Source: a virus. Taken from it: 38,206 bases of DNA. Below, one piece after another: positions 1 through 31,616 of the stretch. Below the pieces are notes generated by a model. The model was not told the DNA's origin. It saw only the letters and a list, made by a program, of their open reading frames with translations, and searched no databases. Both the position numbers and the translations under genes were made by a program. Position 1 is the stretch's first letter, and each line of letters opens with the position of its first letter. The stretch is taken from positions 1-38,206 of the IMG/VR virus record IMGVR_UViG_3300042890_003757; one strand, written 5' to 3'.

Positions 1-197
1 TCTATAGATATTTCAAGATTATCTCTGGTAAAACCAGGTACGTCAAAGGACACATAAGCACCATCTTTTGTTTCATCAATAGTGTAGTCAGTTTCTAAAT
101 AATTACCTAAATAATTATCAAAAGCACTTGTACTTGATGATGATGTGATAAATGGGTACCCATTAAAGAATAAATTAATTAAATCTTTCTCTCTCAT
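1..197 (-). CDS. Small heat-shock protein Hsp20 (alpha-crystallin family), 3' end outside window
   Basis: The reverse strand reads an open frame from ATG at 195-197 to the window edge, giving 65 residues without a stop. Residues 38-65 contain YTIDETKDGAYVSFDVPGFT followed by RDNLEISI, which matches the start of an alpha-crystallin domain (the D-V-P-G-F segment followed by a charged turn and the next strand). Hsp20 proteins are ATP-independent holdases that keep unfolding proteins soluble, and T4-like phages and cyanophages are known to carry them. The gene is divergent from the ClpC-like gene at 396 and shares its control region, so the two may be co-regulated. The first 35 residues are Ser/Asn rich and specific to this protein. 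The C-terminal I-x-I tail cannot be seen. Confidence 0.85.
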   Translation of the reverse strand, partial: MREKDLINLFFNGYPFITSSSSTSAFDNYLGNYLETDYTIDETKDGAYVSFDVPGFTRDNLEISI

Positions 198-268
198 AAT
201 TTTGATTTTTTATAAATGTTTATTTTTTTTATGAAAAAGTCAAATTTAATGCCAATATATTTTTATAT

Positions 269-341
269 GACAAAATGGCAGTTATATATATAGCAATAAG
301 ACAATTTGTCATAATACAATGAAATTATAAGACAATTTGTC
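269..341. promoter_or_regulatory. Three operator-like inverted repeats at 31-bp spacing
   Basis: GACAATTTGTC occurs at 300-310 and again at 331-341. A one-mismatch version, GACAAAATGGC, lies at 269-279. Start-to-start distance is exactly 31 bp in both intervals, about three helical turns. All three fit GACA-NNN-TGTC, a pattern typical of dimeric repressor sites. They lie between the divergent hsp20-like and clpC-like genes. A fourth copy precedes the small gene at 22281. The binding protein is unknown. Confidence 0.6.
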
Positions 342-372
342 AAAACTATTTGATTAGTATAAAATTTGTAGC

Positions 373-382
373 ATATTTATAA
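373..382 (+). promoter_or_regulatory. Late-type promoter box upstream of the clpC-like gene
   Basis: ATATTTATAA ends 13 bases before the ATG at 396. The same box precedes many other genes in this window (for example 26773, 28699, 36770). Its use as a -10 element is inferred from recurrence and position. Confidence 0.45.
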
Positions 383-395
383 AAAAACATAAGAT

Positions 396-2396
396 ATGAA
401 CGTTGATTTCTTTGATGATGAAAAAACAACCAGAGGTAAGAAAAATACTACTGGTTCAAAAACACCTGTTTTAGATAATTTCAGCAGAGATTTATCTAAA
501 TTGGCTGAGATGGGAAAGTTGGATATGTCAATTGGTAGAGAAAAAGAGGTTAAGCGATTGGCTCAAATCTTATCAAGGCGTAAGAAGAATAATCCCCTAA
601 TACTAGGTGATCCTGGTTGTGGTAAAACTAACCTAATTGAAGGCGTTGCTTTAATGATTTCAAAAGGTGAAGGACCGCAAAATTTATTGAGCAAAAGAAT
701 TGTTAATTTGGATTTAACATCTGTTGTTGCTGGAACCAAATATAGGGGTCAGTTTGAAGAAAGAATGAAAGTTATTATTGATGAATTAACATCAAATCCA
801 AATGTGGTTGTTTTTATTGATGAAATTCACACATTAATTGGTTCTGGAAATTCTTCAAATTCTATGGATGGTGCAAATATATTTAAACCAGCATTAGCAT
901 CTGGGGATATTCAATGCATTGGTGCAACAACATTTGATGAATACAAAAAATCAATTGAGAAAGATGGTGCTTTGGCAAGAAGATTCCAAAAAATTAAATT
1001 AGACCAACCATCAATTAGCGAAACAATAACAATCATTAAACAATCTATTGATAAATATGAATCATTTCATAAATCAATATATAGTGATGACATAATTGAA
1101 TTATGTGTTAGGTTGGCTGATAGATATATCACAGACAGAGCATTCCCAGATAAAGCATTTGATGTAATTGATGAAGTTGGTGCAAGGCAACAAGTTGAAG
1201 TTAAAATTCCAGAATCAATCAAAAAATTAAAAGAAAAAATTTCTGAACTAAAACAAGAAAAAACAAGAGTTGTTATCAACCAAGAATATGAATTAGCTGC
1301 CGAAATTAGGGATAAGGAATTAAAACTATTGACCAAACTTGATGCTGAAACAAAAAAGTTTGAAGAAGATAATATTAAAAACAAAAGAAAAATTGATGAA
1401 GAGGATGTTTATTCTGTTGTATCAATTATGACAAACATCCCAATGGAACAATTAAATCTTGATGAAAAGCAAAAACTTATCAATATTGATAAAAAGATTA
1501 AAGATAATGTTATTGGGCAAGACCAAGCAGTTGATTCAATTGTTAAAGCAATTAAGAGAAATAGATTAAACATAAAAGACCCCAACCGACCAATTGGTAG
1601 TTTTATTTGTTTGGGATCCACAGGTGTTGGTAAGACGCATCTTGCAAAACAACTTGCAAAACAATTGTTTGGGAATGAAAAATCACTAATTCGTGTTGAT
1701 ATGAGTGAATACCAAGAAAAGCATACCATATCAAGATTAATTGGTTCACCTCCAGGATATGTTTCACATGATGAAGGTGGTCAATTAACTGAAAAAGTTA
1801 AAAACAATCCTTATTCTGTTATCTTATTTGATGAGATAGAAAAAGCACATAAAGATGTATTCCATTTATTGTTGCAAATTCTGGATGATGGTCATCTTAC
1901 TGATGCTATGGGAAAAACAATTAATTTTAAAAATACCATAATCATTTTAACATCAAACTTGGGTATTAAGAAATTCTCTGACTTTGGTACAGGTATTAGT
2001 TTCACTAGTTCAAAATATGGCAATGAAGAAGCAAAAAAATCTATGCTAATGGCTGAACTTAAAAAGTTTTTCTCACCAGAATTCTTAAATCGTATTGATG
2101 ATACAGTTGTATTCAATACATTAAATGATGATAATGTTAAGAAAATCACAAGAATTGAACTTAACAAGTTGATTGATAGACTAAAAGAATCAAAATACAA
2201 TTTCACTTATGATGATAGTGTTGTTGATTTAATATCAAAAATTGGGTTTGATGAAACTTATGGTGCAAGACCAATAAAACGAGCAATTCAAGATAAAATT
2301 GAAGATTTAATTTCTGATGAAGTATTAAATGATGTGGTTAAAGAAGGGGGTAAATACCAATTAACTGCAAAAGATGAAAATGTTATTTTAAACTAA
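396..2396 (+). CDS. clpC: ClpC/ClpA-type AAA+ protease unfoldase lacking the N-domain
   Basis: This two-ring Hsp100 ATPase would unfold substrates and feed them into ClpP. Ring 1 has Walker A GDPGCGKT at residues 71-78 and Walker B VVFIDEIH near 138-145. A short middle segment near 275-320 contains YELAAEIRDKE, the UVR-type coiled motif typical of ClpC rather than the long ClpB middle domain. Ring 2 has Walker A GSTGVGKT near 407-414 and Walker B VILFDEIEKAH near 475, followed by TSNLG and SPEFLNRID. Between the last two, FGTGISF (near 529-535) sits where ClpA has IGL and ClpC has VGF, the ClpP-docking loop. At 666 residues it lacks the roughly 150-residue Clp_N adaptor and substrate domain. 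ClpP is encoded at 15052 and tmRNA at 6434, so it is likely part of a phage degradation pathway. A ClpB-type disaggregase is less likely given the short middle domain. Confidence 0.92.
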   Translation: MNVDFFDDEKTTRGKKNTTGSKTPVLDNFSRDLSKLAEMGKLDMSIGREKEVKRLAQILSRRKKNNPLILGDPGCGKTNLIEGVALMISKGEGPQNLLSKRIVNLDLTSVVAGTKYRGQFEERMKVIIDELTSNPNVVVFIDEIHTLIGSGNSSNSMDGANIFKPALASGDIQCIGATTFDEYKKSIEKDGALARRFQKIKLDQPSISETITIIKQSIDKYESFHKSIYSDDIIELCVRLADRYITDRAFPDKAFDVIDEVGARQQVEVKIPESIKKLKEKISELKQEKTRVVINQEYELAAEIRDKELKLLTKLDAETKKFEEDNIKNKRKIDEEDVYSVVSIMTNIPMEQLNLDEKQKLINIDKKIKDNVIGQDQAVDSIVKAIKRNRLNIKDPNRPIGSFICLGSTGVGKTHLAKQLAKQLFGNEKSLIRVDMSEYQEKHTISRLIGSPPGYVSHDEGGQLTEKVKNNPYSVILFDEIEKAHKDVFHLLLQILDDGHLTDAMGKTINFKNTIIILTSNLGIKKFSDFGTGISFTSSKYGNEEAKKSMLMAELKKFFSPEFLNRIDDTVVFNTLNDDNVKKITRIELNKLIDRLKESKYNFTYDDSVVDLISKIGFDETYGARPIKRAIQDKIEDLISDEVLNDVVKEGGKYQLTAKDENVILN

Positions 2397-3252: not shown

Positions 3253-3732
3253 TTATCTATAATATTCTCTAATTATTTTCCCTTTAATATACCCAGGTTC
3301 AATCATTTTTCTTATTTCTTTATCTGAATATTTTAATAATTCACTCTCAATTATAATCAAAATACTCCCAACTTTCAAGCCTTTTGGTAGTGAGGTTATG
3401 TATGTATATGCTAAATCCAATTCATCCCCAACTTCCAATCCTTCTGGTAAACTTTCTATATATGAATTTCTTAAATCTAAATCACCCCCAACCTTCAAGC
3501 CTTCTGGTAAGGAGATTATTTCTGATTCATATAAACTTAAACCACCTTTAACTTCCAAACCTTTTGGTAGTGAGGTTATGTTTGAACTAGATAAATCCAA
3601 ACTACCTTTAACAATCAAATCATCTTTTTCTGTTATTGGTATATTGTTTTTTAATTTCCACATAAGTGGTTTTCTTTTATTATCATTTTCTTCAAGAAAA
3701 TCAAATATCTTTTTTAGTGTTTCTTTTTCCAT
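3253..3732 (-). CDS. LRR-like repeat protein, paralog A of the tandem array
   Basis: The 159-residue protein has three parts shared by the whole family. These are a head beginning MEKETLKKIFDFLEEN and ending with an N-N-I-P-I-T-E-K segment, four copies of a 20-residue repeat of the form L-x-L-x-x-S-x-I-x-S-L-P-x-G-L-x-V-x-G, and a tail with YSDKEIRKMIEPGYIKGKI. The repeat resembles bacterial leucine-rich repeats, which form curved binding surfaces. No signal peptide or membrane segment is visible, so it is probably cytoplasmic or packaged in virions. It is the last gene of a six-gene minus-strand array. The ligand is unknown. Confidence 0.75.
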   Translation of the reverse strand: MEKETLKKIFDFLEENDNKRKPLMWKLKNNIPITEKDDLIVKGSLDLSSSNITSLPKGLEVKGGLSLYESEIISLPEGLKVGGDLDLRNSYIESLPEGLEVGDELDLAYTYITSLPKGLKVGSILIIIESELLKYSDKEIRKMIEPGYIKGKIIREYYR

Positions 3733-3749
3733 TATATATTTAATTTAAA

Positions 3750-4244
3750 TCAATCATCATAGTCATCAAAAATTACATTACCTTTAATAAAACCAGGTTC
3801 AACCATTTTTTTTACAATATCCCTTAATTCATTAAGGGATGTGACCTTATACAAATAACTATCATTCAAATATAAATCACCACCAACTTGTAAGCCTCTT
3901 GGTAATGATTTTATGTAAGTGGCTTCAATACTCAAATCCCCACCAACCTTCAAGTCCTTTGGTAATGATTTTATAAAACTGTGATCCAAATATAAATTAC
4001 CAGCAACTTCCAATCTTTCTGGTAATGATTCCATATCTGTTTCAGTTAAATTCAAATCCCCAGCAACTTTCAATCCATCTGGTAATGATTTAATATCTGT
4101 GTTTGTTAAATCCAATTCACCTTCAATATTTAAATCTTTTTCTGTTAATGGTATATTATTTACCCATTTCCACATAAATGGAGTTTGATGTCTTTCATTT
4201 TCTTCAAGGAATGTAAATATCTTTTTTAGTGTTTCTTTTTCCAT
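3750..4244 (-). CDS. LRR-like repeat protein, paralog B of the tandem array
   Basis: 164 residues with the family head (MEKETLKKIFTFLEENERHQ) and four SLP-type repeats with cores IKSLPDGLKV, MESLPERLEV, IKSLPKDLKV and IKSLPRGLQV. The tail IVKKMVEPGFIKGNVI and the repeat before it are almost identical, also at DNA level, to those of the next gene (4244-4774), which suggests recent duplication or gene conversion. Its ATG overlaps the stop of the upstream paralog by one base (TAATG), so the two are translationally coupled. It ends in a short acidic DDYDD. Function unknown. Confidence 0.75.
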   Translation of the reverse strand: MEKETLKKIFTFLEENERHQTPFMWKWVNNIPLTEKDLNIEGELDLTNTDIKSLPDGLKVAGDLNLTETDMESLPERLEVAGNLYLDHSFIKSLPKDLKVGGDLSIEATYIKSLPRGLQVGGDLYLNDSYLYKVTSLNELRDIVKKMVEPGFIKGNVIFDDYDD

Positions 4245-4774
4245 TATATGTATATGTCTGATTTAAGCCAATTATAACCTTCTTGATTAAAAATTACATT
4301 ACCTTTAATAAAACCAGGTTCAACCATTTTTTTTACAATATCCCTTAATTCATTACTACCATTATAATCTATATTATTAAGTAATTTACTATCATTCAAA
4401 TATAAATCACCACCAACTTGTAAGCCTCTTGGTAATGAGGCTATGTAAGTGGCTTCAATACTCAAATCACCACCAACCTTCAAGCCCTTTGGTAATGAGT
4501 CTATTTTTGAAGCATATAAATCCAAATGGCCACCAACTAATAGTCCTTCTGGTAAGAATCTCATATCTGTTTCAGTTAAAATCAAATTCCCAGCAATTTT
4601 CAATCCATTTGGTAATGATTTAATATTTGTGTCTGTTAAATCCAAATTACCTTCAATATTTAAATCTTTTTCTGTTAATGGTATATTGTTTTGTAATTTC
4701 CACATAAGTGGTGCATTATGCTCACCATTTTCTTCAAGAAATTCAAATATCTTTTTTAATGTTTCTTTTTCCAT
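4244..4774 (-). CDS. LRR-like repeat protein, paralog C of the tandem array
   Basis: 176 residues with the family head and four repeats (cores IKSLPNGLKI, MRFLPEGLLV, IDSLPKGLKV, IASLPRGLQV). The tail is NELRDIVKKMVEPGFIKGN, as in paralog B, with an extra 10-residue C-terminal extension. An insertion of a few residues before the tail distinguishes it from B. Start and stop overlap the neighbours closely, so the array is probably one transcript. No catalytic motif is visible. Confidence 0.75.
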   Translation of the reverse strand: MEKETLKKIFEFLEENGEHNAPLMWKLQNNIPLTEKDLNIEGNLDLTDTNIKSLPNGLKIAGNLILTETDMRFLPEGLLVGGHLDLYASKIDSLPKGLKVGGDLSIEATYIASLPRGLQVGGDLYLNDSKLLNNIDYNGSNELRDIVKKMVEPGFIKGNVIFNQEGYNWLKSDIYI

Positions 4775-4777
4775 AAT

Positions 4778-5128
4778 TTACCAACTTCTATCTATTTTAC
4801 CTTGAATATATCCAGGCGCAATCATTTTTATTATTTCATAATCTGAATATTTAGTTAATGGGCTGTTTTTAATATATAAATTTTCACCAACTTTTAATCC
4901 TTTTGGTAATGAGGTTATTTTTGTGTGAGATAAATCCAAATCATCTTTAATATTTAAATATTCTGGTAAGGATTTTATAGTTGAACCTTTTAAATCCAAA
5001 TCACGATCAATAGTTAATTCCTTTTCTGTTAATGGTTCATTATTTATTAATTTCCAAGCAATTGGAATATTTCTATTCTCATTCTGTTTAAGAAAATCAA
5101 GTATTTTTTTTAGTGTTTCTTTTTCCAT
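4778..5128 (-). CDS. LRR-like repeat protein, short paralog D of the tandem array
   Basis: At 116 residues this is the shortest member. It keeps the head (MEKETLKKILDFLKQNENRN) and the tail (YSDYEIIKMIAPGYIQGKI) but has only two full repeats (IKSLPEYLNI, ITSLPKGLKV). Head and tail are conserved while repeat number varies, as expected if copies gain and lose 60-bp units by recombination. It lies 3 bases downstream of paralog E. Confidence 0.73.
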   Translation of the reverse strand: MEKETLKKILDFLKQNENRNIPIAWKLINNEPLTEKELTIDRDLDLKGSTIKSLPEYLNIKDDLDLSHTKITSLPKGLKVGENLYIKNSPLTKYSDYEIIKMIAPGYIQGKIDRSW

Positions 5129-5131
5129 TAA

Positions 5132-5665
5132 CTAAACTTTAATTATTCTTCCTTTTATATATCCAGGTTTAATCATTTTTCTTAATTCATCATCTGTGTA
5201 TTCTGTTAATTTTGTACCATTCAAATCTATAAAACCCTCAACTTTTAACCCTCTTGGTAATGAGATTATTTTTGTAAAACCTAAATCTAAATTACGCCCA
5301 ACCTTCAAGCCTTCTGGTAGTGAAGTTATATTTGCACAATCAAATAAAGATAAACTCCCACCAACTTTCAACCCTTTTGGTAATGATGTTATATTTGAAT
5401 ATCCCAAATCCAAATGCCCCCCAACTTCTAATCCTTCTGGTAATGATTGTATATTTTTACAACCATATAAACTTAAATTATTCTCAACTTTCAATCCATC
5501 TGGTAATGATTCAATATCTGTTTTTGTTAAATTCAAATCACCATTAACAATCAAATCATCTTCTGTTATTGGTATATTGTTTTGTAATTTCCACATAAGT
5601 GGTGCATTATGCTCACCATTTTCTTCAAGGAATTTAAATATCTTTTTTAGTGTTTCTTTTTTCAT
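5132..5665 (-). CDS. LRR-like repeat protein, paralog E of the tandem array
   Basis: 177 residues with five repeats (cores IESLPDGLKV, IQSLPEGLEV, ITSLPKGLKV, ITSLPEGLKV, IISLPRGLKV). Two repeats contain an extra residue in the strand-turn (GCKNIQSLP, DCANITSLP), the one-residue insertion also seen in paralog F. The tail is YTDDELRKMIKPGYIKGRI. Its head differs at the second codon (MKKETL instead of MEKETL). Confidence 0.75.
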   Translation of the reverse strand: MKKETLKKIFKFLEENGEHNAPLMWKLQNNIPITEDDLIVNGDLNLTKTDIESLPDGLKVENNLSLYGCKNIQSLPEGLEVGGHLDLGYSNITSLPKGLKVGGSLSLFDCANITSLPEGLKVGRNLDLGFTKIISLPRGLKVEGFIDLNGTKLTEYTDDELRKMIKPGYIKGRIIKV

Positions 5666-5682
5666 TATATATTTAATTTAAA

Positions 5683-6273
5683 TCAATCATCATCATCTTC
5701 TTCATCATAATCATCATCATCACTATCAGCATCCTCATTATTATAAAATATCTTACCTTTTATAAACCCAGGTTGAATCATTTTTCTTAACTTTTTATCA
5801 CTATATTCCTCTAATGCTGAATTAGTAACAATTAAATCCCCACCAATCTCTAATCCTTTTGGTAATTCATAAACATCACTATTATCTAAATGCAATTCAC
5901 CACCAACTTTCAATCCTTCTGGTAGGGAATCTAAACTTTCACAACCAGATAAAATTAAATCACCACCAACTACTAAACCATTAGGTAATGAGTCTAAATG
6001 TAATGAATATGATAAATCCAAACTACCTCCAACTTTCAATCCTTTTGGTAGAGAACGTAAACTTTCACATTCGGATAAAATTAAATCACCACTAACTACC
6101 AAACCATTAGGTAATGACTCTATGGGTGTTTCTGATAAATTTAAATCACCTTTAATATTTAATTCTTCTTCTGTGAATGGTTCATTATTTAATAATTTCC
6201 AAATAAATGGTACATTTCTGTTATCATTCTTTTCAAGAAAATTGAATATCTTTTTTAATGTTTCTTTTTCCAT
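5683..6273 (-). CDS. LRR-like repeat protein, paralog F with acidic tail, first gene of the array
   Basis: 196 residues with five repeats, including alternating cores with inserted residues (ECESLRSLPKGLKV, GCESLDSLPEGLKV). After the family tail MIQPGFIKGKIFYN it has a unique C-terminus made almost only of Asp, Glu, Ser and Tyr (about 18 residues), which no other copy has. Such a tail might bind a basic partner or cations, but this is a guess. It is promoter-proximal: an ATATTTATAT box lies at 6289-6298. Confidence 0.75.
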   Translation of the reverse strand: MEKETLKKIFNFLEKNDNRNVPFIWKLLNNEPFTEEELNIKGDLNLSETPIESLPNGLVVSGDLILSECESLRSLPKGLKVGGSLDLSYSLHLDSLPNGLVVGGDLILSGCESLDSLPEGLKVGGELHLDNSDVYELPKGLEIGGDLIVTNSALEEYSDKKLRKMIQPGFIKGKIFYNNEDADSDDDDYDEEDDDD

Positions 6274-6433: not shown

Positions 6434-6855
6434 GGGGGCGAAAGGGATCGATTGGCGTGGATTGGGTAAGAAGGCATGTTGGGGCTGAATTAACCTCATT
6501 AACAACTGGTTCAAGCCTTTAACTGGCAACACTTTAGAAACTTTAGCAACTTTAGGTCTAGTACGTGAAGATGCTGTTGTTGCGGCTTAGTAGTCATAAC
6601 AACCCCGGGTCGGTGGGCATATAACCCAGGAACAGAAGCCTCATAGTGTGATACTACTTATTGTGTCAAAGGTTTTGGTTTGGGGTGCTACCTGTAAGTC
6701 TATGCAAATAGTGGAAGTGAACCCCCCACAGTTGTCAGGTCAAATGGAAAAATATGAACTGTCTTATGTGTCCATACAGAATCTATGGAATAAGCATGTA
6801 GTCTTTTTACTAAATTACGAGCAAGACCAGGGTTCAATTCCCTGCGTCTCCACCA
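6434..6855 (+). ncRNA. ssrA: tmRNA (transfer-messenger RNA)
   Basis: The 422-base gene has both ends of a tRNA-like domain. The 5' GGGGGCG pairs with 3' CGTCTCC to make a seven-pair acceptor stem, followed by an encoded ACCA (6852-6855). The third pair is G-U, the alanyl-tRNA synthetase identity element. The T-arm is CAGGG, loop TTCAATT, CCCTG. The tag reading frame most likely starts at GGC 6525, because TTAACT before it supplies the U and A at -5 and -4 seen before resume codons. It encodes 21 residues beginning G-N-T-L-E and ending R-E-D-A-V-V-A-A, then two consecutive TAG stops (6588-6593). tmRNA rescues stalled ribosomes and adds a degradation tag. GC-rich segments after the stops probably form pseudoknots. 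An alternative resume codon is GCA 6546 (14 residues). SmpB is not seen here, so host SmpB may serve. Confidence 0.95.
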
Positions 6856-11925: not shown

Positions 11926-12819
11926 TTAGTTTGTATATTTTACATTAGGTTGATTTGGATTGACTTTTGGCTTATAGTATATGGGATTTGTTGTATCTTG
12001 TGTAGTAGCGTTTAATTGATTGTAATTTGTTGCTGGTGTAGTAGTGTTATAGTTTGGATTTAAAAAATTACTTGTTTTGTCATAATATGAACTAGCCCTG
12101 TCCTTGGAAACATCATCTACTTTTTGTTTATAATACGAAATAAGGGGTTTTTTAATATTTTTTGGAGTATAAATACTTATTGCTCTAATTGTGACTTTTG
12201 CCCAATTTAAAATTGCAGCAACTGCAATTTTAATTTTTGATAATATTTTATACAAAGAATCTAAATTATTTTTTTGTAAAAAAATTAATATATCATCAAT
12301 ATATTTAACAGCTTTATCAATATAAAGTGGTATTTTATCTAACCAAGGTTTAAACCAATTAATGATATCATCTAACCAATCTAGTGTTTTTGAATTTTTT
12401 ATTTTAGTTACCCAAGGAGTTAAACTACTAATAGATACTTCTTTAACCCCAGGCAACGCCATAAGTAACTCAAAAACACCTAAGAAAAAAGATTTAAATT
12501 TACCAACTTCATCATCTATATAAATTTTTACTCCCTCATAAAAATAATATAATCCATGAAATATACCTATAACACCATCAGCAGAACCAGCACTTGCAAA
12601 TCCAGCAATTAATTCAGAACTATCTAATAAATTATGAATACCATCAGAAGTTCTAATATCGTATTTTTCAATAATTTTATTCCAATCAATTTGTAGATTT
12701 TTAGGTGCTGGTTGCACATATGAGCCAGTAATATTCTGATTATATCCTTGTTCATTAATAACTTTGGTATAATACAATGATTTTATGTGTTTTTTTTCAT
12801 TTTCATTTATATATAACAT
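11926..12819 (-). CDS. Unknown hydrophobic protein with capsid-targeting-like leader
   Basis: Residues 1-24 (MLYINENEKKHIKSLYYTK then VINEQ) match the leader type seen in several other genes here, with a predicted cut after E23. Residues about 55-130 are unusually rich in Gly, Ala, Leu and aromatic residues (LIAGFASAGSADGVIGIFHG and FFLGVFELLMALPGVKEV), followed by Trp-rich amphipathic helices (LDWLDDIINWFKPWLDKIP). The LIAGFASAG...ALPGV layout recalls pre-toxin or membrane-insertion segments of exported toxins, but the similarity is weak. The last 50 residues are Asn/Tyr/Pro/Thr rich. A head-packaged, membrane-active ejection protein is one possibility. Confidence 0.65.
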   Translation of the reverse strand: MLYINENEKKHIKSLYYTKVINEQGYNQNITGSYVQPAPKNLQIDWNKIIEKYDIRTSDGIHNLLDSSELIAGFASAGSADGVIGIFHGLYYFYEGVKIYIDDEVGKFKSFFLGVFELLMALPGVKEVSISSLTPWVTKIKNSKTLDWLDDIINWFKPWLDKIPLYIDKAVKYIDDILIFLQKNNLDSLYKILSKIKIAVAAILNWAKVTIRAISIYTPKNIKKPLISYYKQKVDDVSKDRASSYYDKTSNFLNPNYNTTTPATNYNQLNATTQDTTNPIYYKPKVNPNQPNVKYTN

Positions 12820-13222: not shown

Positions 13223-14263
13223 TTATGCTTTTGCAGTTGTATTACAGAATGATGGTTTAATTGCTCCACTTAATTGTGTTAAAACGACCATAGAACCTTT
13301 TGGTAAATTTAAAGCACCATAATTTCTATAAAAATTATTTTTACTTAAACTATTACAATTTGTATAGAGTATGGTTGCACCTTTTTCATTTTTTATGTAT
13401 ATTGAATTAGTTGATGTGTCTTTTACTGCTCTAAAAGATTGCCCTGTAAATCTATTATTATCTGTTGGTAATGCTTTCAACTCACTAATTACTAAGTTAG
13501 TAACATTAACATTTGTTGTACTTTTTGAACAAAAATTATAATTAAGTATGTTGTATAATTTATCAGGAATAGTTATTGGTATTTGTTTAGTACCATCTCT
13601 TGTAAACTGATACCTAATCCCTTTTTTATTTTTTAATGATTCACAACTTGTTGTTATTTTAACATTACCAGTTCTATCTGTCAATTGTATATAACCACCC
13701 TTCATAAATGATTTATTAATATAACCAAGACCACCCCCATAATCAGCAGCTATATTAACAACAACACCAGCATTATTTTGCATTGGTTGTTGTGTTTGTG
13801 CATTTGTTGCACCTACTGCATCTGGAGTAGATTGTTTAATGTAAGTATTAATTTCATCATCTGTTATCTGTGTTTTTTTTGGATTTTGCAACATTTCTCT
13901 AATATATTGTAATGTGGTTGGTCCAAGTTTACCATCTTGGGTTATGTTAAATTGTTTTTGCAATCTTTGTATTGCTGTTGATTGATCACACAAAACATAT
14001 GGACCTTTTTCTTTCTGCCTATACCCAGCTGCACAAGCAACTTGTCTCTGTGCTGCTGGTTGCGCTGCTGGTTGTGCTGCTGGTTGCGCTACTGGTTGTG
14101 CTGCTGGTTGTGCTGCTGGTTGCCCTGTTGCATAATCTGGCAATAAATTAAGATTTACATCTCTTCCATATTGTGCAGCCATCTCTTCTGCTGATTGTTC
14201 CAATAACATATTCTTTATTACCCGAATTAATTTACTCTCATTAATTTGCATTAATTTTCTCAT
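13223..14263 (-). CDS. Virion-type protein with targeting leader, Pro/Ala/Gln linker and peptidoglycan-binding domain
   Basis: Residues 1-23 (MRKLMQINESKLIRVIKNML then LEQ) form an amphipathic helix ending L-L-E before Q. Residues about 50-72 are repeated PAAQ units, a flexible linker. Residues about 88-115 (QSTAIQRLQKQFNITQDGKL, then GPTTLQYIREML) match a PG_binding_1 fold: a paired helix, D-G-K-L-G-P-T, then a second helix. The C-terminal half (about 170-346) contains two internally similar segments (GNVKITTSCESLKNKKGIRY and GATILYTNCNSLSKNNFYRN), suggesting a duplicated domain of unknown function. Peptidoglycan binding in a packaged protein would fit a role during genome entry. Confidence 0.7.
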   Translation of the reverse strand: MRKLMQINESKLIRVIKNMLLEQSAEEMAAQYGRDVNLNLLPDYATGQPAAQPAAQPVAQPAAQPAAQPAAQRQVACAAGYRQKEKGPYVLCDQSTAIQRLQKQFNITQDGKLGPTTLQYIREMLQNPKKTQITDDEINTYIKQSTPDAVGATNAQTQQPMQNNAGVVVNIAADYGGGLGYINKSFMKGGYIQLTDRTGNVKITTSCESLKNKKGIRYQFTRDGTKQIPITIPDKLYNILNYNFCSKSTTNVNVTNLVISELKALPTDNNRFTGQSFRAVKDTSTNSIYIKNEKGATILYTNCNSLSKNNFYRNYGALNLPKGSMVVLTQLSGAIKPSFCNTTAKA

Positions 14264-15051: not shown

Positions 15052-15708
15052 ATGAAAAACGAATTCAAGTCCTATTATGTTAACCATTTAGGAAAACCAT
15101 CATCAAATTTGGATTATTTTGAAAACTCTATGACCCCCTATATTCTTGAAGAAAGGGAAATGAGGGCAACACAAATTGATATCTTTTCAAGATTAATGAG
15201 AGATAGATTAATATGGATTGCTGGCCCAGTAGAGGATCGAATGGCAACCATAATTCAAGCACAATTAATGTTTCTTGATTCCACAGAAAAGTCTGACGTT
15301 ACATTGCACGTAGATAGCCCTGGGGGTTCTGTAAAGGCTGGTTTATCAATTGTTGATGTTATGGACTATATTGCTTGTGATGTGCGTACAGTGAACACAG
15401 GAATGGCTGCATCAATGGGATCCATTATCCTTGGTGCTGGAACAAAAGGGAAAAGAACTTCTCTTAGATTTTCAAAAACAATGTTACACCAAAGTTCTGG
15501 AGGCGCTTATGGTAACATCCAAGATGCCGAAATAACAATGAAAGAATGGCAAAAGACAAATGAAATTCTTTTTAAGTTGTTGGGGGGTTATTGTGGTAAA
15601 ACAGCAGAACAAGTTAAACTAGATGCTAGTAGAGATTTATGGCTTGACGCTAATGAATCATTAACCTATGGTATAATTGATGAGATTATTGTTTCTAAAA
15701 AGAAATAA
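15052..15708 (+). CDS. clpP: ClpP-type ATP-dependent protease proteolytic subunit
   Basis: 218 residues with the ClpP fold and all three catalytic residues: Ser121 in GMAASMGS, His146 in TMLHQ, and Asp191 in LDASRDLWLDANE (the D-x-x-R-D motif). VDSPGGSVKAG at 87-97 gives the oxyanion Gly-Gly-Ser loop. The N-terminal 35 residues are longer than in mature E. coli ClpP and could be a propeptide or axial loop. ClpP forms a barrel of two seven-subunit rings and needs an AAA+ unfoldase; the ClpC-like protein at 396 is the obvious partner. The phage tmRNA tag would supply substrates. It is separated from its partners by 13 kb, so this is not an operon. Confidence 0.93.
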   Translation: MKNEFKSYYVNHLGKPSSNLDYFENSMTPYILEEREMRATQIDIFSRLMRDRLIWIAGPVEDRMATIIQAQLMFLDSTEKSDVTLHVDSPGGSVKAGLSIVDVMDYIACDVRTVNTGMAASMGSIILGAGTKGKRTSLRFSKTMLHQSSGGAYGNIQDAEITMKEWQKTNEILFKLLGGYCGKTAEQVKLDASRDLWLDANESLTYGIIDEIIVSKKK

Positions 15709-15816: not shown

Positions 15817-16437
15817 TTATCCAAAATATTTAGTTTTTACATCATTTATAAATTTACAAGCAATAGGTGTAATTGTTTTCATCAAATTCTTTTTAAATTC
15901 ATTATTCTGTATAAATTCCATAGTTGTGTTTCTTAAAGCATCACCAATAAAACCACCAAACCCCTTATCTTTAAAAAGGTTTTTTTGTAGTTTTGTCTGA
16001 ACAAATGTTTCAACACCAGCATCAATAAGTTTTTCTGTAAAAACATTACAATCAGTAAATGATTTAATTAACATTGCAGGATCATCTAATAAAAAGTTAA
16101 CAATTGTTTTAAGAAACCAACCATCTGGGATACCTAAATATTTCTGTAATCCCCAACCTATTATTTTCTCTAACATAGCTTGACCTACACCAGAACCTAA
16201 TGAACTTGAAGTAAAAAAATTAGCAACGGTTCCAGGATTAATGTATTTACCAACATCAAACTCATTCAATAAAATATTATTATGTATTTTATTTACTTCA
16301 TTAATATATTTAAGAGAAATATGTAATTTTTTGTTTTCAGATAATGAATTGAAATATTCAACACTAATATTTGAAAATTTTTTATTCAAATTATTCTTTA
16401 ATATAATTGATTCAATTATAACTTTCTTATTTATCAT
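15817..16437 (-). CDS. Unknown protein, last gene of the 20095-15817 late operon
   Basis: 206 residues, not recognised. The first 65 residues are helical and charged, with Y-I-N-E and L-L-N-E sites (KYINEVN, ILLNEFD) that could be late prohead-protease cuts, but the leader is longer and less clear than in its neighbours. Residues 70-130 are Gly/Phe/Leu rich (FFTSSSLGSGVGQAMLEKII then GWGLQKYLGIPDGWFLKTIV) and look membrane-active. The start overlaps the stop of the upstream gene by 4 bases (ATGA), so translation is coupled. Confidence 0.65.
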   Translation of the reverse strand: MINKKVIIESIILKNNLNKKFSNISVEYFNSLSENKKLHISLKYINEVNKIHNNILLNEFDVGKYINPGTVANFFTSSSLGSGVGQAMLEKIIGWGLQKYLGIPDGWFLKTIVNFLLDDPAMLIKSFTDCNVFTEKLIDAGVETFVQTKLQKNLFKDKGFGGFIGDALRNTTMEFIQNNEFKKNLMKTITPIACKFINDVKTKYFG

Positions 16438-17543
16438 ATTTCTTCTATTTTAAATGCTGGGTTTATTTGACTATATTGCCCCCCAACTACACCTAAATCT
16501 CTAAGTTTTTTACCAAAATTTTTATTACTAAAAGTATTATAACAAATTTGAATTTTATCTTTATAAGTTAAAATATTTGGTGGTATTTGATTAATTGGTG
16601 TGGATCTATAATTTGCATATGCATTTGTAAATGTTTCTAAATTTTTCAAACATTGTGTATGCTTCTGTTCAGTAACATTTAATGCACCAGGATTCATATC
16701 TTTTGCTTTTTCATTGAATGCTCTTGGTTGATACATAATAAATGATGTATTGAATATGCTTGGATATACGGTTTTTAAATCAATAGGTATATAATTACCT
16801 ATTTGTGAATAATCCATAGTTGCTTCTCCTTTCCATCCAGTTTTTTCTAAATTACCAATTAGTTCTGTTTGTTGAGGAGTCACAGGTTTAGCACCAGATT
16901 TAACCTTTGGTCTATAAAAAAACTTATCTTTTGTAGTTGGATATAATTTTGGATTAAAATTAGGATCTTGTTCTAATATTTTAAAAATGTCACTTACAGA
17001 CATTTTATCATAAATTTCAGGATTATTTAGTTGCGATTGCTCACTTGTGTTAAATGAAGAAAATGGTTTAAACCCTTGACTTGAAACAGTATCATTAATT
17101 CTTTGTATTACTTCAGCAACTTTAATTTTCAACCCACCACAAGTAAATGACTGTTGAATTTCAGTTACAGTATTTTGCCCATTATCGTTTTTTATAATAT
17201 ATTGATTTAATGTTCCATCTTCACCAATATTTGATAAATCAAAAAAAACAGCATCATTTGGATTATAATATGTTGTTTGTGCTATTGCAAGACCTAATAT
17301 ACCAACTCTATTTCTAAAAAGCCAAGGCGTTGGTTTGTCTATTATCTGTTTAGTATTTTTATTATAACCTTTAAAATTGCTAAAGTCACAAAGTTTGTTA
17401 CTCACAATTTGATTTGCTAACAATTTACCATGATTAGGATTAATGTCAGTTGTTTGTGGTTGGACAGCTTGTTCTTTTAGAACATTATGCATATTTAATA
17501 TCCTACTCTTTTCAGAATTTTCAATATTTAAATTTATTTTCAT
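16434..17543 (-). CDS. Unknown 369-residue protein with capsid-targeting-like leader
   Basis: The leader MKINLNIENSEKSRILNMHN, then VLKEQ, ends L-K-E before Q (predicted cut after residue 24). It is of the S/D-E/D-K-x-R-I-L-N-x-H type, shared with the products at 19520 and 30408. The rest has no recognised motif; it is Asn/Gln/Pro rich with two Cys-containing segments (TCGGLKIK, HTQCLKNL). It sits between two other leader-bearing or membrane-active genes in one operon, which supports a shared packaged or ejected function. Confidence 0.68.
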   Translation of the reverse strand: MKINLNIENSEKSRILNMHNVLKEQAVQPQTTDINPNHGKLLANQIVSNKLCDFSNFKGYNKNTKQIIDKPTPWLFRNRVGILGLAIAQTTYYNPNDAVFFDLSNIGEDGTLNQYIIKNDNGQNTVTEIQQSFTCGGLKIKVAEVIQRINDTVSSQGFKPFSSFNTSEQSQLNNPEIYDKMSVSDIFKILEQDPNFNPKLYPTTKDKFFYRPKVKSGAKPVTPQQTELIGNLEKTGWKGEATMDYSQIGNYIPIDLKTVYPSIFNTSFIMYQPRAFNEKAKDMNPGALNVTEQKHTQCLKNLETFTNAYANYRSTPINQIPPNILTYKDKIQICYNTFSNKNFGKKLRDLGVVGGQYSQINPAFKIEEI

Positions 17544-20626: not shown

Positions 20627-20944
20627 TTAATTTAGGTATTTATCTTCCAATTCTTTCTTTGACATTGATGTTTCAAAGTGCATATAAAATGACAAAGTTC
20701 TATTTTCAGATTCTACTGCTAATTCACTAGTTGGCTTACCTTTTGGTAATGAATTTATGAATTTTTTAATTTTGGAATCAATTTTTAATATTTCAGATAT
20801 TGTAATATCATCTTTGCTTTGGTATGTTATAACCTTTTTATTGTCCCACATTGAAAATTGCATACTTTTTGGTAATTTTTGTTCTACAATAACTCTATGA
20901 ACCAATCTTTTTAAATCTGTTTCTGTTAATCTTAATGTTCTCAT
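20627..20944 (-). CDS. Leader-bearing small protein, tandem paralog 2
   Basis: 105 residues, starting MRTLRLTETDLKRLVHRVIV then EQ, with an I-V-E/Q site at residue 21. The first 22 residues are nearly identical to the paralog upstream (20965-21282). The mature parts share L-P-K-x-M-Q-F, K-K-x-I, a helix with K-K-F-I-N-S-L-P-x-G, and a C-terminal FETSMSKKELEDKY. The two genes therefore arose by tandem duplication. Mature function unknown. Confidence 0.7.
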   Translation of the reverse strand: MRTLRLTETDLKRLVHRVIVEQKLPKSMQFSMWDNKKVITYQSKDDITISEILKIDSKIKKFINSLPKGKPTSELAVESENRTLSFYMHFETSMSKKELEDKYLN

Positions 20945-20964: not shown

Positions 20965-21282
20965 TTATTTATACTTTTCTTCCAACTCCTCAACGGATAA
21001 TGACGTTTCAAACTCTTGGGAGAAAAATATAGAACTGTAATCAGGCTCTAATATCAATTCACCAACAACTCTTCCATTAGGGAGAGAGTTTATGAATTTT
21101 TTCATATCTTCATGTATTTCTGTTATTTCAGATAATTTAATATTACCGCCATCTACACCTGAAGAAATCATTTTTTTACCTTTGTAAGTATCAAACTGCA
21201 TATCCTTTGGTAATGATTGTTCTGAAATAACTTTACGAACCAATCTTTTTAAATCTGTTTCTGTTAATCTTAATGTTCTCAT
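20965..21282 (-). CDS. Leader-bearing small protein, tandem paralog 1
   Basis: 105 residues, starting MRTLRLTETDLKRLVRKVIS then EQ, with an I-S-E/Q site at residue 21. The mature part is about 84 residues, acidic, ending FETSLSVEELEEKYK. It is co-transcribed with its paralog at 20627 from the ATATTTATATA box at 21299-21309. The leader is far better conserved between the two copies than the rest, as expected if it is a targeting signal. Confidence 0.7.
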   Translation of the reverse strand: MRTLRLTETDLKRLVRKVISEQSLPKDMQFDTYKGKKMISSGVDGGNIKLSEITEIHEDMKKFINSLPNGRVVGELILEPDYSSIFFSQEFETSLSVEELEEKYK

Positions 21283-22246: not shown

Positions 22247-22257
22247 GACAAAATGTC
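22247..22257. promoter_or_regulatory. Operator-like inverted repeat, fourth copy
   Basis: GACAAAATGTC fits GACA-NNN-TGTC, as in the triplet at 269-341, and lies 23 bases before the ATG at 22281. This hints at a shared regulator for the Hsp20/ClpC pair and this gene. Confidence 0.45.
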
Positions 22258-22280: not shown

Positions 22281-22493
22281 ATGCAAACATTACTATTTAA
22301 CACAACAGAGAAGACTGTTAGAGTTTATGAAGGCCACAAATCAGTTGGTACAATCATATGCACATTTAATTCTGTGCCAACAGTTAAGATTTATGATGGA
22401 TATTATGAAGTTAAACAAAAGGATGAAGATGAAAAGACATATCCTGTTGCCAGATTTCCAGTAAACCAAACAAATATGTTTATTGAGAAGTAA
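22281..22493 (+). CDS. Small unknown 70-residue protein
   Basis: The sequence MQTLLFNTTEKTVRVYEGHK followed by IICTFNSVPTVKIYDGYYEV suggests a small beta-rich fold of alternating strands. No motif is recognised and there is no leader or membrane segment. It is a single gene between an operator-like site and a strong terminator, so probably an independently controlled early gene. Confidence 0.65.
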   Translation: MQTLLFNTTEKTVRVYEGHKSVGTIICTFNSVPTVKIYDGYYEVKQKDEDEKTYPVARFPVNQTNMFIEK

Positions 22494-27880: not shown

Positions 27881-28627
27881 TTAAAATATTTGTTGGTCTC
27901 TTCTATCCATAAATTGATTTGACTCATAATGGAATTGATAAGGAGCCATAGGATCACCCAAATTAAATATGAAATAATATGCTGAACCAGGGTAGTCTTT
28001 TAAATATCTGCTATAATGCCCGTGTCCAAAAGTACAGAATTTAATTTCTGCGCCTTTTTGAGCTTTAAATAAAATATCACAATATACCTTATGCGTTTCT
28101 TTTGAAATGTCAGATATTTTAAATATTTGATAACCATCAACAAGACCTAATAACTTAATTCCAGCAGCATCTAATTTCAATAAATCATTTTTTGAAACTA
28201 AATTCTCACTACTACCAAGGTCATCATCCATACCAAATTCAATACCTTTTTCTTTGAAAGCAATTGCTGCTTTTTCAAATTCTCTAATATCACGACTAGA
28301 TTTAATCTGATTAATATCTAATATAGAGAAAAACGCTTTACCTGCATTTGACCTTTTGGCTTCCTCAAAGGATTTAAAATAATCCTCATATTTGTAGATA
28401 TCTTCTTCAAGAACTTTCTTTTCAGCAACTCTTGCAGATAACCATTTAATATAAGCACCTTTACCGCCAGCAGCTGACACAATCTCGTCATAAACTTCTT
28501 CGCTAATCTTACCTGAATCAACAAATATTTGTTTATATTGAGCAATAGTTGCTTGATTTTGTTCAGAAATAATTCTTCTAATGATTAATTGTAAATCATT
28601 CTCTGTTAATCTTATTGTTTTTGCCAT
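27881..28627 (-). CDS. Unknown protein with capsid-targeting-like leader
   Basis: 248 residues, starting MAKTIRLTENDLQLIIRRII then SEQ, an I-S-E/Q site at residue 22. The leader is the same R-L-T-E-x-D-L type as at 20627 and 20965, although the mature proteins are unrelated. The mature part is helical in the first half and ends with FGHGHYSRYLKDYPGSAYYF followed by QFHYESNQFMDRRDQQ. That last part has a Y/F-Q-F/L-x-F/Y...F-M-D-x-x-D pattern similar to the Y-Q-F-Q-F...D-V-R-D block of the protein at 22535, so the two may share a domain. Confidence 0.68.
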   Translation of the reverse strand: MAKTIRLTENDLQLIIRRIISEQNQATIAQYKQIFVDSGKISEEVYDEIVSAAGGKGAYIKWLSARVAEKKVLEEDIYKYEDYFKSFEEAKRSNAGKAFFSILDINQIKSSRDIREFEKAAIAFKEKGIEFGMDDDLGSSENLVSKNDLLKLDAAGIKLLGLVDGYQIFKISDISKETHKVYCDILFKAQKGAEIKFCTFGHGHYSRYLKDYPGSAYYFIFNLGDPMAPYQFHYESNQFMDRRDQQIF

Positions 28628-31136: not shown

Positions 31137-31616
31137 TTACTGTCTATGTATTTTTCCTAATATAAATCCAGGTATAATCATTTTAGATAATTCTTCATCA
31201 GAAAATCTTGATAATTTTGAAGAATCAATATTCAAATCACCATATACTTTTAAACCTTTTGGTAATGATGAAATAAATGAATATTGTATGTTCAAATCAC
31301 GCCCAACTTTTAACCCTTCTGGTAATTTATCTATATCTGAACCATATAAATCCAAATCTCCCCCAATTTTCAAGCCCTTTGGTAATTCTTGTATGGGGGA
31401 AGAGTATAAATTCAAATCTCCATCAACTTGTAATCCTTCTGGTAATCCTGATATATCTAAATTCTCTAAATACAAATCACCTTTAAAAACTAAATCTTCT
31501 TTTGTTAATGACTCATTAAAAACATCTTTCCAAATAAATGTATTTTTGTATTTATGTTTTTTTTCTTCATTCTCTTCAAGAAAATTAAGTATATTTTTTA
31601 GTGTTTGTTTTTCCAT
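31137..31616 (-). CDS. LRR-like repeat protein, paralog G (dispersed copy)
   Basis: 159 residues with the family head (MEKQTLKNILNFLEENEEKK), four repeats (cores ISGLPEGLQV, IQELPKGLKI, IDKLPEGLKV, ISSLPKGLKV) and the tail FSDEELSKMIIPGFILGKI. It lies 25 kb from the six-gene array and is the last gene of an operon with a leader-bearing protein and a membrane/coiled-coil protein. The TAATG overlap with the gene upstream shows translational coupling. This places the family in late transcription units. Confidence 0.75.
   Translation of the reverse strand: MEKQTLKNILNFLEENEEKKHKYKNTFIWKDVFNESLTKEDLVFKGDLYLENLDISGLPEGLQVDGDLNLYSSPIQELPKGLKIGGDLDLYGSDIDKLPEGLKVGRDLNIQYSFISSLPKGLKVYGDLNIDSSKLSRFSDEELSKMIIPGFILGKIHRQ

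Follow-up and report, generated by a model that had tools for sequence, protein, structure and literature searches.

The stretch of DNA analysed here, called the window, is a virus record of 38,206 bases with a GC content of 28.5%. Between an hsp20-like gene and a divergent clpC-like gene it carries three operator sites and a putative promoter, and these features are given below.

3-197, minus strand: hsp20-like gene, truncated by the contig edge to a 65-residue fragment
240-255, minus strand: putative sigma-54-type -24/-12 promoter of hsp20, TTGGCATTAAATTTGA, with GG at 253-252 and G at 241, 13 bp from operator 1
269-279, no strand assigned: operator 1, GACAAAATGGC, an imperfect copy nearest hsp20, which fits GNCANNNTGNC
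300-310, no strand assigned: operator 2, exact GACAATTTGTC
331-341, no strand assigned: operator 3, exact GACAATTTGTC, nearest clpC
342-395, plus strand: clpC promoter region, with TTTG at 349-352 and 365-368
396-2396, plus strand: clpC/clpA-like ATPase of 666 aa, with AAA_2, AAA_lid_9, ClpB_D2-small and UVR domains

The two flanking genes are as described in the first-pass annotation, the hsp20 gene being cut by the contig edge. The 65-residue hsp20 fragment gave no Pfam match; its full-length copy in the relative L005, near-identical as judged by eye, matched HSP20 (PF00011, E 1.1e-12). The window holding the clpC-like ATPase has also a ClpP-type protease gene (15052-15708, plus strand; PF00574, E 6e-56), and with both genes the virus may possess a complete Clp protease. 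A complete tmRNA gene lies at 6434-6855 on the plus strand, with a tag peptide given by ARAGORN and a match to Rfam RF00023 of 80.6 bits. A family of paralogues at 3253-6273 (minus), 31137-31616 (minus) and 37402 to the window end (plus) shares the start MEKETLKKI... and leucine-rich-like repeats; the three scanned gave no Pfam match. Several otherwise unlike proteins start with similar stretches of some 20 residues, such as RLTETDLKRLVHRVIVEQ, whose last two residues are EQ.

13223-14263, 20627-20944, 20965-21282 and 27881-28627, minus strand: proteins with the similar N-terminus
11926-12819 and 16434-17543, minus strand: proteins in which the similar N-terminus is less clear

The internal proteins of phage T4 bear a capsid-targeting sequence, a possible parallel, and by this analogy the EQ segment may be a targeting or propeptide signal.

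The occurrence of the operator in the window was analysed. Three GACA-NNN-TGTC operators had been annotated between the divergent genes; this holds for the sites at 300 and 331, which are exact, but the copy at 269, GACAAAATGGC, carries one mismatch from the exact operator. The same imperfect operator 1 is present in L005 and L044, the two closest relatives, and the looser form GNCANNNTGNC fits within 198-395 the sites 269, 300 and 331 and nothing else. The window has three exact copies of GACANNNTGTC (300, 331 and 22247) where dinucleotide shuffles predict 0.27, and 1 of 100 shuffles reached this number. With up to one mismatch allowed, no enrichment over the whole window was found (12 matches against 7.89 expected; 12 or more in 18 of 100 shuffles). 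The annotated 31-bp spacing of 269, 300 and 331 is correct, and two exact copies within 60 bp of each other appeared in 0 of 300 Markov simulations of the window. As the one-mismatch count is not enriched while the exact copies are clustered, the unusual feature is the cluster and not the count. CIRCE, the operator of HrcA, is TTAGCACTC-N9-GAGTGCTAA, and it was not seen when 198-395 was read by eye. The Bacteroidetes LexA operator was considered and rejected, GACANNNTGTC fitting neither GGA-N5-TCC nor CTAA-N5-TTAG, the motifs given in the accessible part of PMC8565304.

For the clpC-like gene 597 viral relatives were found, of which 80 were kept and 78 had at least 200 bp upstream. An exact operator within 200 bp upstream of the clpC match start was present in 55 of the 78 (0.08 expected; maximum 1 in 200 simulations), and 23 were without an exact site upstream of clpC. 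Neighbouring exact pairs in the relatives (n=24) were 30-32 bp apart in 16 cases, 41-43 bp in five, and 13, 29 and 51 bp once each. Eleven large relatives of 73-321 kb contain 30 exact copies, 2-4 per record, and 18 of these lie just upstream of clpC, with at least one in each of the 11 records. Lack of conservation in related phages and random scatter of the motif had been named by the first-pass annotation as findings which would speak against its reading; the sites proved to be conserved upstream of clpC and were not scattered at random. Repeats arisen by chance in AT-rich DNA, or structural ones having no regulatory role, would agree with the unenriched one-mismatch count and with the site at 22247, which is compatible with chance at the above expectation. 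This explanation is opposed by the conservation across relatives, the link to particular genes and the sharpness of the gap described below; for 269-341 it is refuted by the conservation, and overall it is given almost no credence. The operators at 269-341 are real.

The remaining 12 exact copies of the large relatives, those away from clpC, could be expected if a regulator encoded by the phage binds the sites, as phage regulators often control their own gene. However, the backward control gave 17 matches in the same 11 records, a frequency about equal, which places the motif away from clpC at chance level.

The operator goes with the divergent gene, hsp20 or UVR-domain. Where the divergent gene was of either class (n=61 relatives), an operator within 260 bp of clpC was exact in 54, loose in five and absent in two, while for other divergent genes (n=17) it was exact in one and absent in 16. 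These classes were assigned with HMMs made for this analysis from the relatives, and examples were checked against Pfam (HSP20 in L005; UVR in L009, L432 and L451). Small UVR-domain proteins such as those of L009, L432 and L451, each with two UVR stretches, have genes that in many relatives diverge from clpC, or that lie downstream of the operator module, and they are possible ClpC adaptors. McsA of Firmicutes is a UVR-domain partner of ClpC, and a UVR-domain gene stands likewise beside clpC in many viral relatives; the likeness lies in the UVR motif, whereas the UVR gene of the relatives is divergent and has a sigma-54-type promoter. Host clpC was rejected as the source of the operator, since 80 cellular clpC relatives, some on contigs that end earlier, had no exact site in the 690 bp before the match start. 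At cellular clpC one exact site, at -692 (L281), and a few one-mismatch sites were found. A scan of viral contigs for the operator pair only (at least 120 loci) revealed spacing peaks at 21-23 and 31 bp among the loci listed, with 15 of the 53 listed 21-23-bp pairs in contigs below 40% GC and, where the contig had a GC content not above 42%, 16 of 72 listed pairs beside a clpC-like gene.

The fourth site, annotated ahead of the small gene at 22281, is present at 22247 as an exact copy but is not a conserved member of the system. Homologues of the gene at 22281 were found in seven of 12 relatives, and none of the exact operator sites of the large relatives lies near that homologue in any of the seven. 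In the four relatives with the gene start located, the 150 bp upstream had no site within one mismatch, and no -24/-12 element was seen beside 22247 on reading by eye. The site was rejected as part of the operator system for want of conservation in relatives, and is probably a chance occurrence.

The region facing hsp20 was then considered as a promoter. The order toward hsp20 is operator, 13 bp, TTGGCATTAAATTTGA, a putative promoter which the annotation did not mention and which, by its fixed distance, identifies the system. The sigma-54 promoter consensus has GG and GC elements at -24/-12 spacing; TTGGCATTAAATTTGA agrees with a TTGGNA-N6-TTG-type spacing, but GA replaces the usual GC. Transcription of hsp20 is expected to start near 228. 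In the relatives, on the side toward hsp20, the operator is separated by about 12 bp from an element similar to YGGYAY-N5-TTGA or a close variant of it; in 63 sequences, TTGGYA starts 11-14 bp past the operator in 23 cases. Strict TTGGNA-N6-TTG was found in the hsp20 direction of 11 of the 55 operator-bearing relatives, compared to 0.24 expected. As far as sequence can tell, the operators are the upstream sites of this putative sigma-54-type (-24/-12) heat-shock promoter. The clpC direction carries the strict promoter in 3 of 55 relatives (0.36 expected), equal to the simulation maximum of 3, and the clpC side of the window, 342-395, has no -24/-12 element at the right spacing, which is a point against the reading favoured below. 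The Bacteroidota housekeeping promoter consists of -33 TTTG and -7 TAnnTTTG, and a promoter of this kind is possible for clpC in part of the relatives.

Viral contigs, many of them near-duplicates, were scanned blindly for an exact operator, a gap and TTGGNA-N6-TTG. With a gap of 10-14 bp at least 118 matches were obtained, and the control with a gap of 15-19 bp gave 14 in all. Among the 118 matches listed the gap was 10 bp in two, 11 in 23, 12 in 75, 13 in 18 and 14 in none, so that 116 fall at 11-13 bp. The next gene in these listed matches was hsp20 in 65, UVR-type in 12, clpC in 11, dnaK in eight, another gene in 13, and none was found in nine; the full module thus stands before clpC itself in other phages in 11 of the 118. 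Seven of the 13 other genes listed come from two repeated contig sets: three are a DNA polymerase B gene and four an unnamed gene of 105 residues. A heat-shock-type next gene was seen in 96 of the 118 matches and 81 of the 94 distinct promoters listed, against 0 of 14 in the 15-19-bp control. The result is in accordance with the annotated idea of an in-phase operator array tied to heat shock. A scan with gaps of 20-50 bp (at least 120 matches) had a gap of 43-44 bp in 47 of the 120 listed, which is 31-32 bp beyond a gap of 12 and so the place of the distal operator; a loose proximal operator was present in 30 of the 120 listed. In one viral contig (L449) a sigma-70-type factor gene (349-1167, plus strand) lies downstream of an operator and -24/-12 module with a gap of 13 bp, its start being about 210 bp away.

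The same arrangement was sought in bacteria. A set of 26 Bacteroidota genomes yielded a single tandem pair; it precedes hsp20 in Aquimarina algicola and stands 12 bp from TTGGAACTCTATTTG. When 395 genomes of Bacteroidota were searched for pairs at a spacing of 29-32 bp, this pair and one other were obtained, both ahead of hsp20, and the backward control gave one match. The 32 bacterial hsp20 upstream regions examined, nearly all from the family of Aquimarina, contained TGACA/TGTCA in 28 (12.2 expected) and the strict -24/-12 pattern in 19 (0.32 expected); these 19 strict promoters had a loose operator in 12, with gaps of 0-96 and two at 12. Promoter and loose operator together gave 35 matches in 33 of the 395 genomes, compared to three in the backward control. 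The locus was read for 30 of these, five being without a locus: grpE is downstream in 24, all with a gap of 12, and hsp20 in two, with gaps of 11 and 22, the other four having gaps of 22-28. The grpE promoters have a single site and no second, and Pfam confirmed both GrpE and DnaJ in L402. The operator-promoter distance is 11-13 bp in viruses (matches listed) and at grpE, but 0-96 bp at bacterial hsp20. The operators belong, as a conserved control element, to a heat-shock module of the sigma-54 type which phages and Bacteroidota have in common.

The accessible part of PMC12316311 predicts sigma-54 control for Bacteroidota chaperone genes and states, on a cited reference, that grpE depends on sigma-54 in B. 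thetaiotaomicron and F. psychrophilum. The promoters reported there are likewise -24/-12 elements before grpE, groES and small heat-shock genes, with Flavobacteriia most enriched; the accessible part differs in naming no operator or activator for them. The main text of PMC12316311 does not contain 'uas', and its one use of 'phage' is in 'phage shock protein'. Searches of the open-licence literature listed no paper on this operator or on phage chaperones controlled by sigma-54.

The presence of the module before bacterial grpE and hsp20 also bears on the phage-encoded regulator, for it argues against it, as do searches of the phage records with PF04552 and PF00158. None of 16 phage records matched sigma-54 (PF04552) and none of 25 had a genuine sigma-54 activator (PF00158); these records may be fragments. 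PF00158 gave one weak match per record, in 14 of 14 inside clpC by coordinates, and in further records weak matches (17-40 bits) in eight of 11, which is what Clp-type ATPases should give; the true bEBPs of six bacteria scored above 200 bits. A phage-encoded regulator is considered improbable, and the regulator, which the annotation had left as of phage or host origin, probably comes from the host.

Two host candidates were noted. Candidate A, of 387 residues with receiver and AAA+ domains, follows grpE-dnaJ in L402-L404 and is close to dnaJ in L405. Receiver-AAA+ activators of 384-387 residues are encoded in L402 (4769-5932, minus), L405 (5680-6843, plus) and L406 (5522-6676, minus), and in these three no HTH or other DNA-binding domain match was found. 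Candidate B combines AAA+ with an HTH of Fis type, the latter identified by Pfam in its L407 homologue, and lies in L408-L410 between a miaB-like gene and lptE-secG-groES-groEL, where MiaB, LptE, SecG, GroES and GroEL were named by eye. The HTH-bearing candidate B would be the preferred activator.

Candidate A suits a different explanation, in which the protein on the sites, a heat-shock repressor or a co-factor for recruitment, is placed against the sigma-54 polymerase and a different activator opens the promoter. A receiver-AAA+ bEBP near grpE-dnaJ in several Flavobacteriaceae might act from solution with a DNA-bound partner, and the 384-387-aa protein near dnaJ in L402-L405, having no HTH match, speaks for this explanation. 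The single site at grpE and the rigid gap, 11-13 bp in the listed viral matches and 12 bp in 24 of 24 grpE promoters, would likewise fit direct contact with the polymerase. Against it stand the bEBP with a Fis-type HTH beside groES-groEL, and the tandem sites on one face 31-32 bp apart, which are typical of bEBP enhancers such as the NtrC sites. On balance we regard the repressor or co-factor as rather unlikely.

The reading favoured, with moderate confidence, is that a host bEBP of the Bacteroidota sigma-54 heat-shock regulon binds the sites and switches on the phage hsp20. From the computed results, namely the conservation, the near-exclusive heat-shock link, the fixed gap, the module at bacterial grpE and hsp20, and the searches that found no phage sigma-54 or bEBP, we infer use of the sigma-54 polymerase, activation rather than repression, the host origin and the identity of the factor. 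The same switch, distance and promoter kind at heat-shock genes of other viruses and of bacteria make it probable that phage chaperones are under host heat-shock control. Points against the reading are the scarcity of the strict promoter in the clpC direction, the closeness of the nearest site to the -24 element, the variable gap at bacterial hsp20, the single site at grpE, the 23 relatives lacking an exact operator and the one backward match against two tandem pairs. Protein misfolding in the infected cell would activate the host factor, most likely a DNA-binding sigma-54 activator (bEBP), which would bind the tandem sites, spaced 31 bp on a single DNA face, with the closest of them held about 12 bp from the -24 element. 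The bound factor would then drive phage hsp20 from the -24/-12 promoter, and clpC, dnaK and the UVR-domain gene too in other phages. The host factor may also act on the clpC of the window, as suggested by the shared operators.

Enhancers of sigma-54 activators (NtrC at glnA, PspF) are tandem palindromes on one helix face about three turns apart. The window sites, in tandem, palindromic, 31 bp apart and upstream of a -24/-12 promoter, have the same bEBP-enhancer arrangement; the difference is that the nearest site here is about 12 bp from -24, a distance fixed in viruses and at grpE, and that the activator is putative. As a rule sigma-54 enhancers lie farther upstream of -24 and tolerate changes of distance, so a distance of about 12 bp is out of the ordinary for such an enhancer, and we know of no description of this contact geometry for sigma-54 activation.

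According to the accessible parts of PMC12619734 and PMC9723584, moraphages and bS21 phages, respectively, have predicted Bacteroidota hosts and carry DnaK, DnaJ, Hsp20, ClpA-type or Clp protease genes. Their likeness to the window is this chaperone and Clp gene content, and the promoters of their chaperone genes are not discussed in those parts. More tentatively than for hsp20 itself, large Bacteroidota phages may have their own hsp20/UVR/clpC/dnaK regulon wired to the host sigma-54 stress activator, infection stress switching the chaperones on. If true, this would link large phages, in a way open to test, to heat-shock control in Bacteroidota, a subject little studied. The operator would mark out a regulon in phages and Bacteroidota alike and could serve to find its regulator, and the fixed short distance offers a test case for close-range control of a sigma-54 promoter. 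The finding suggests that phages may read the stress state of the host by borrowing a host promoter rather than encoding a regulator.
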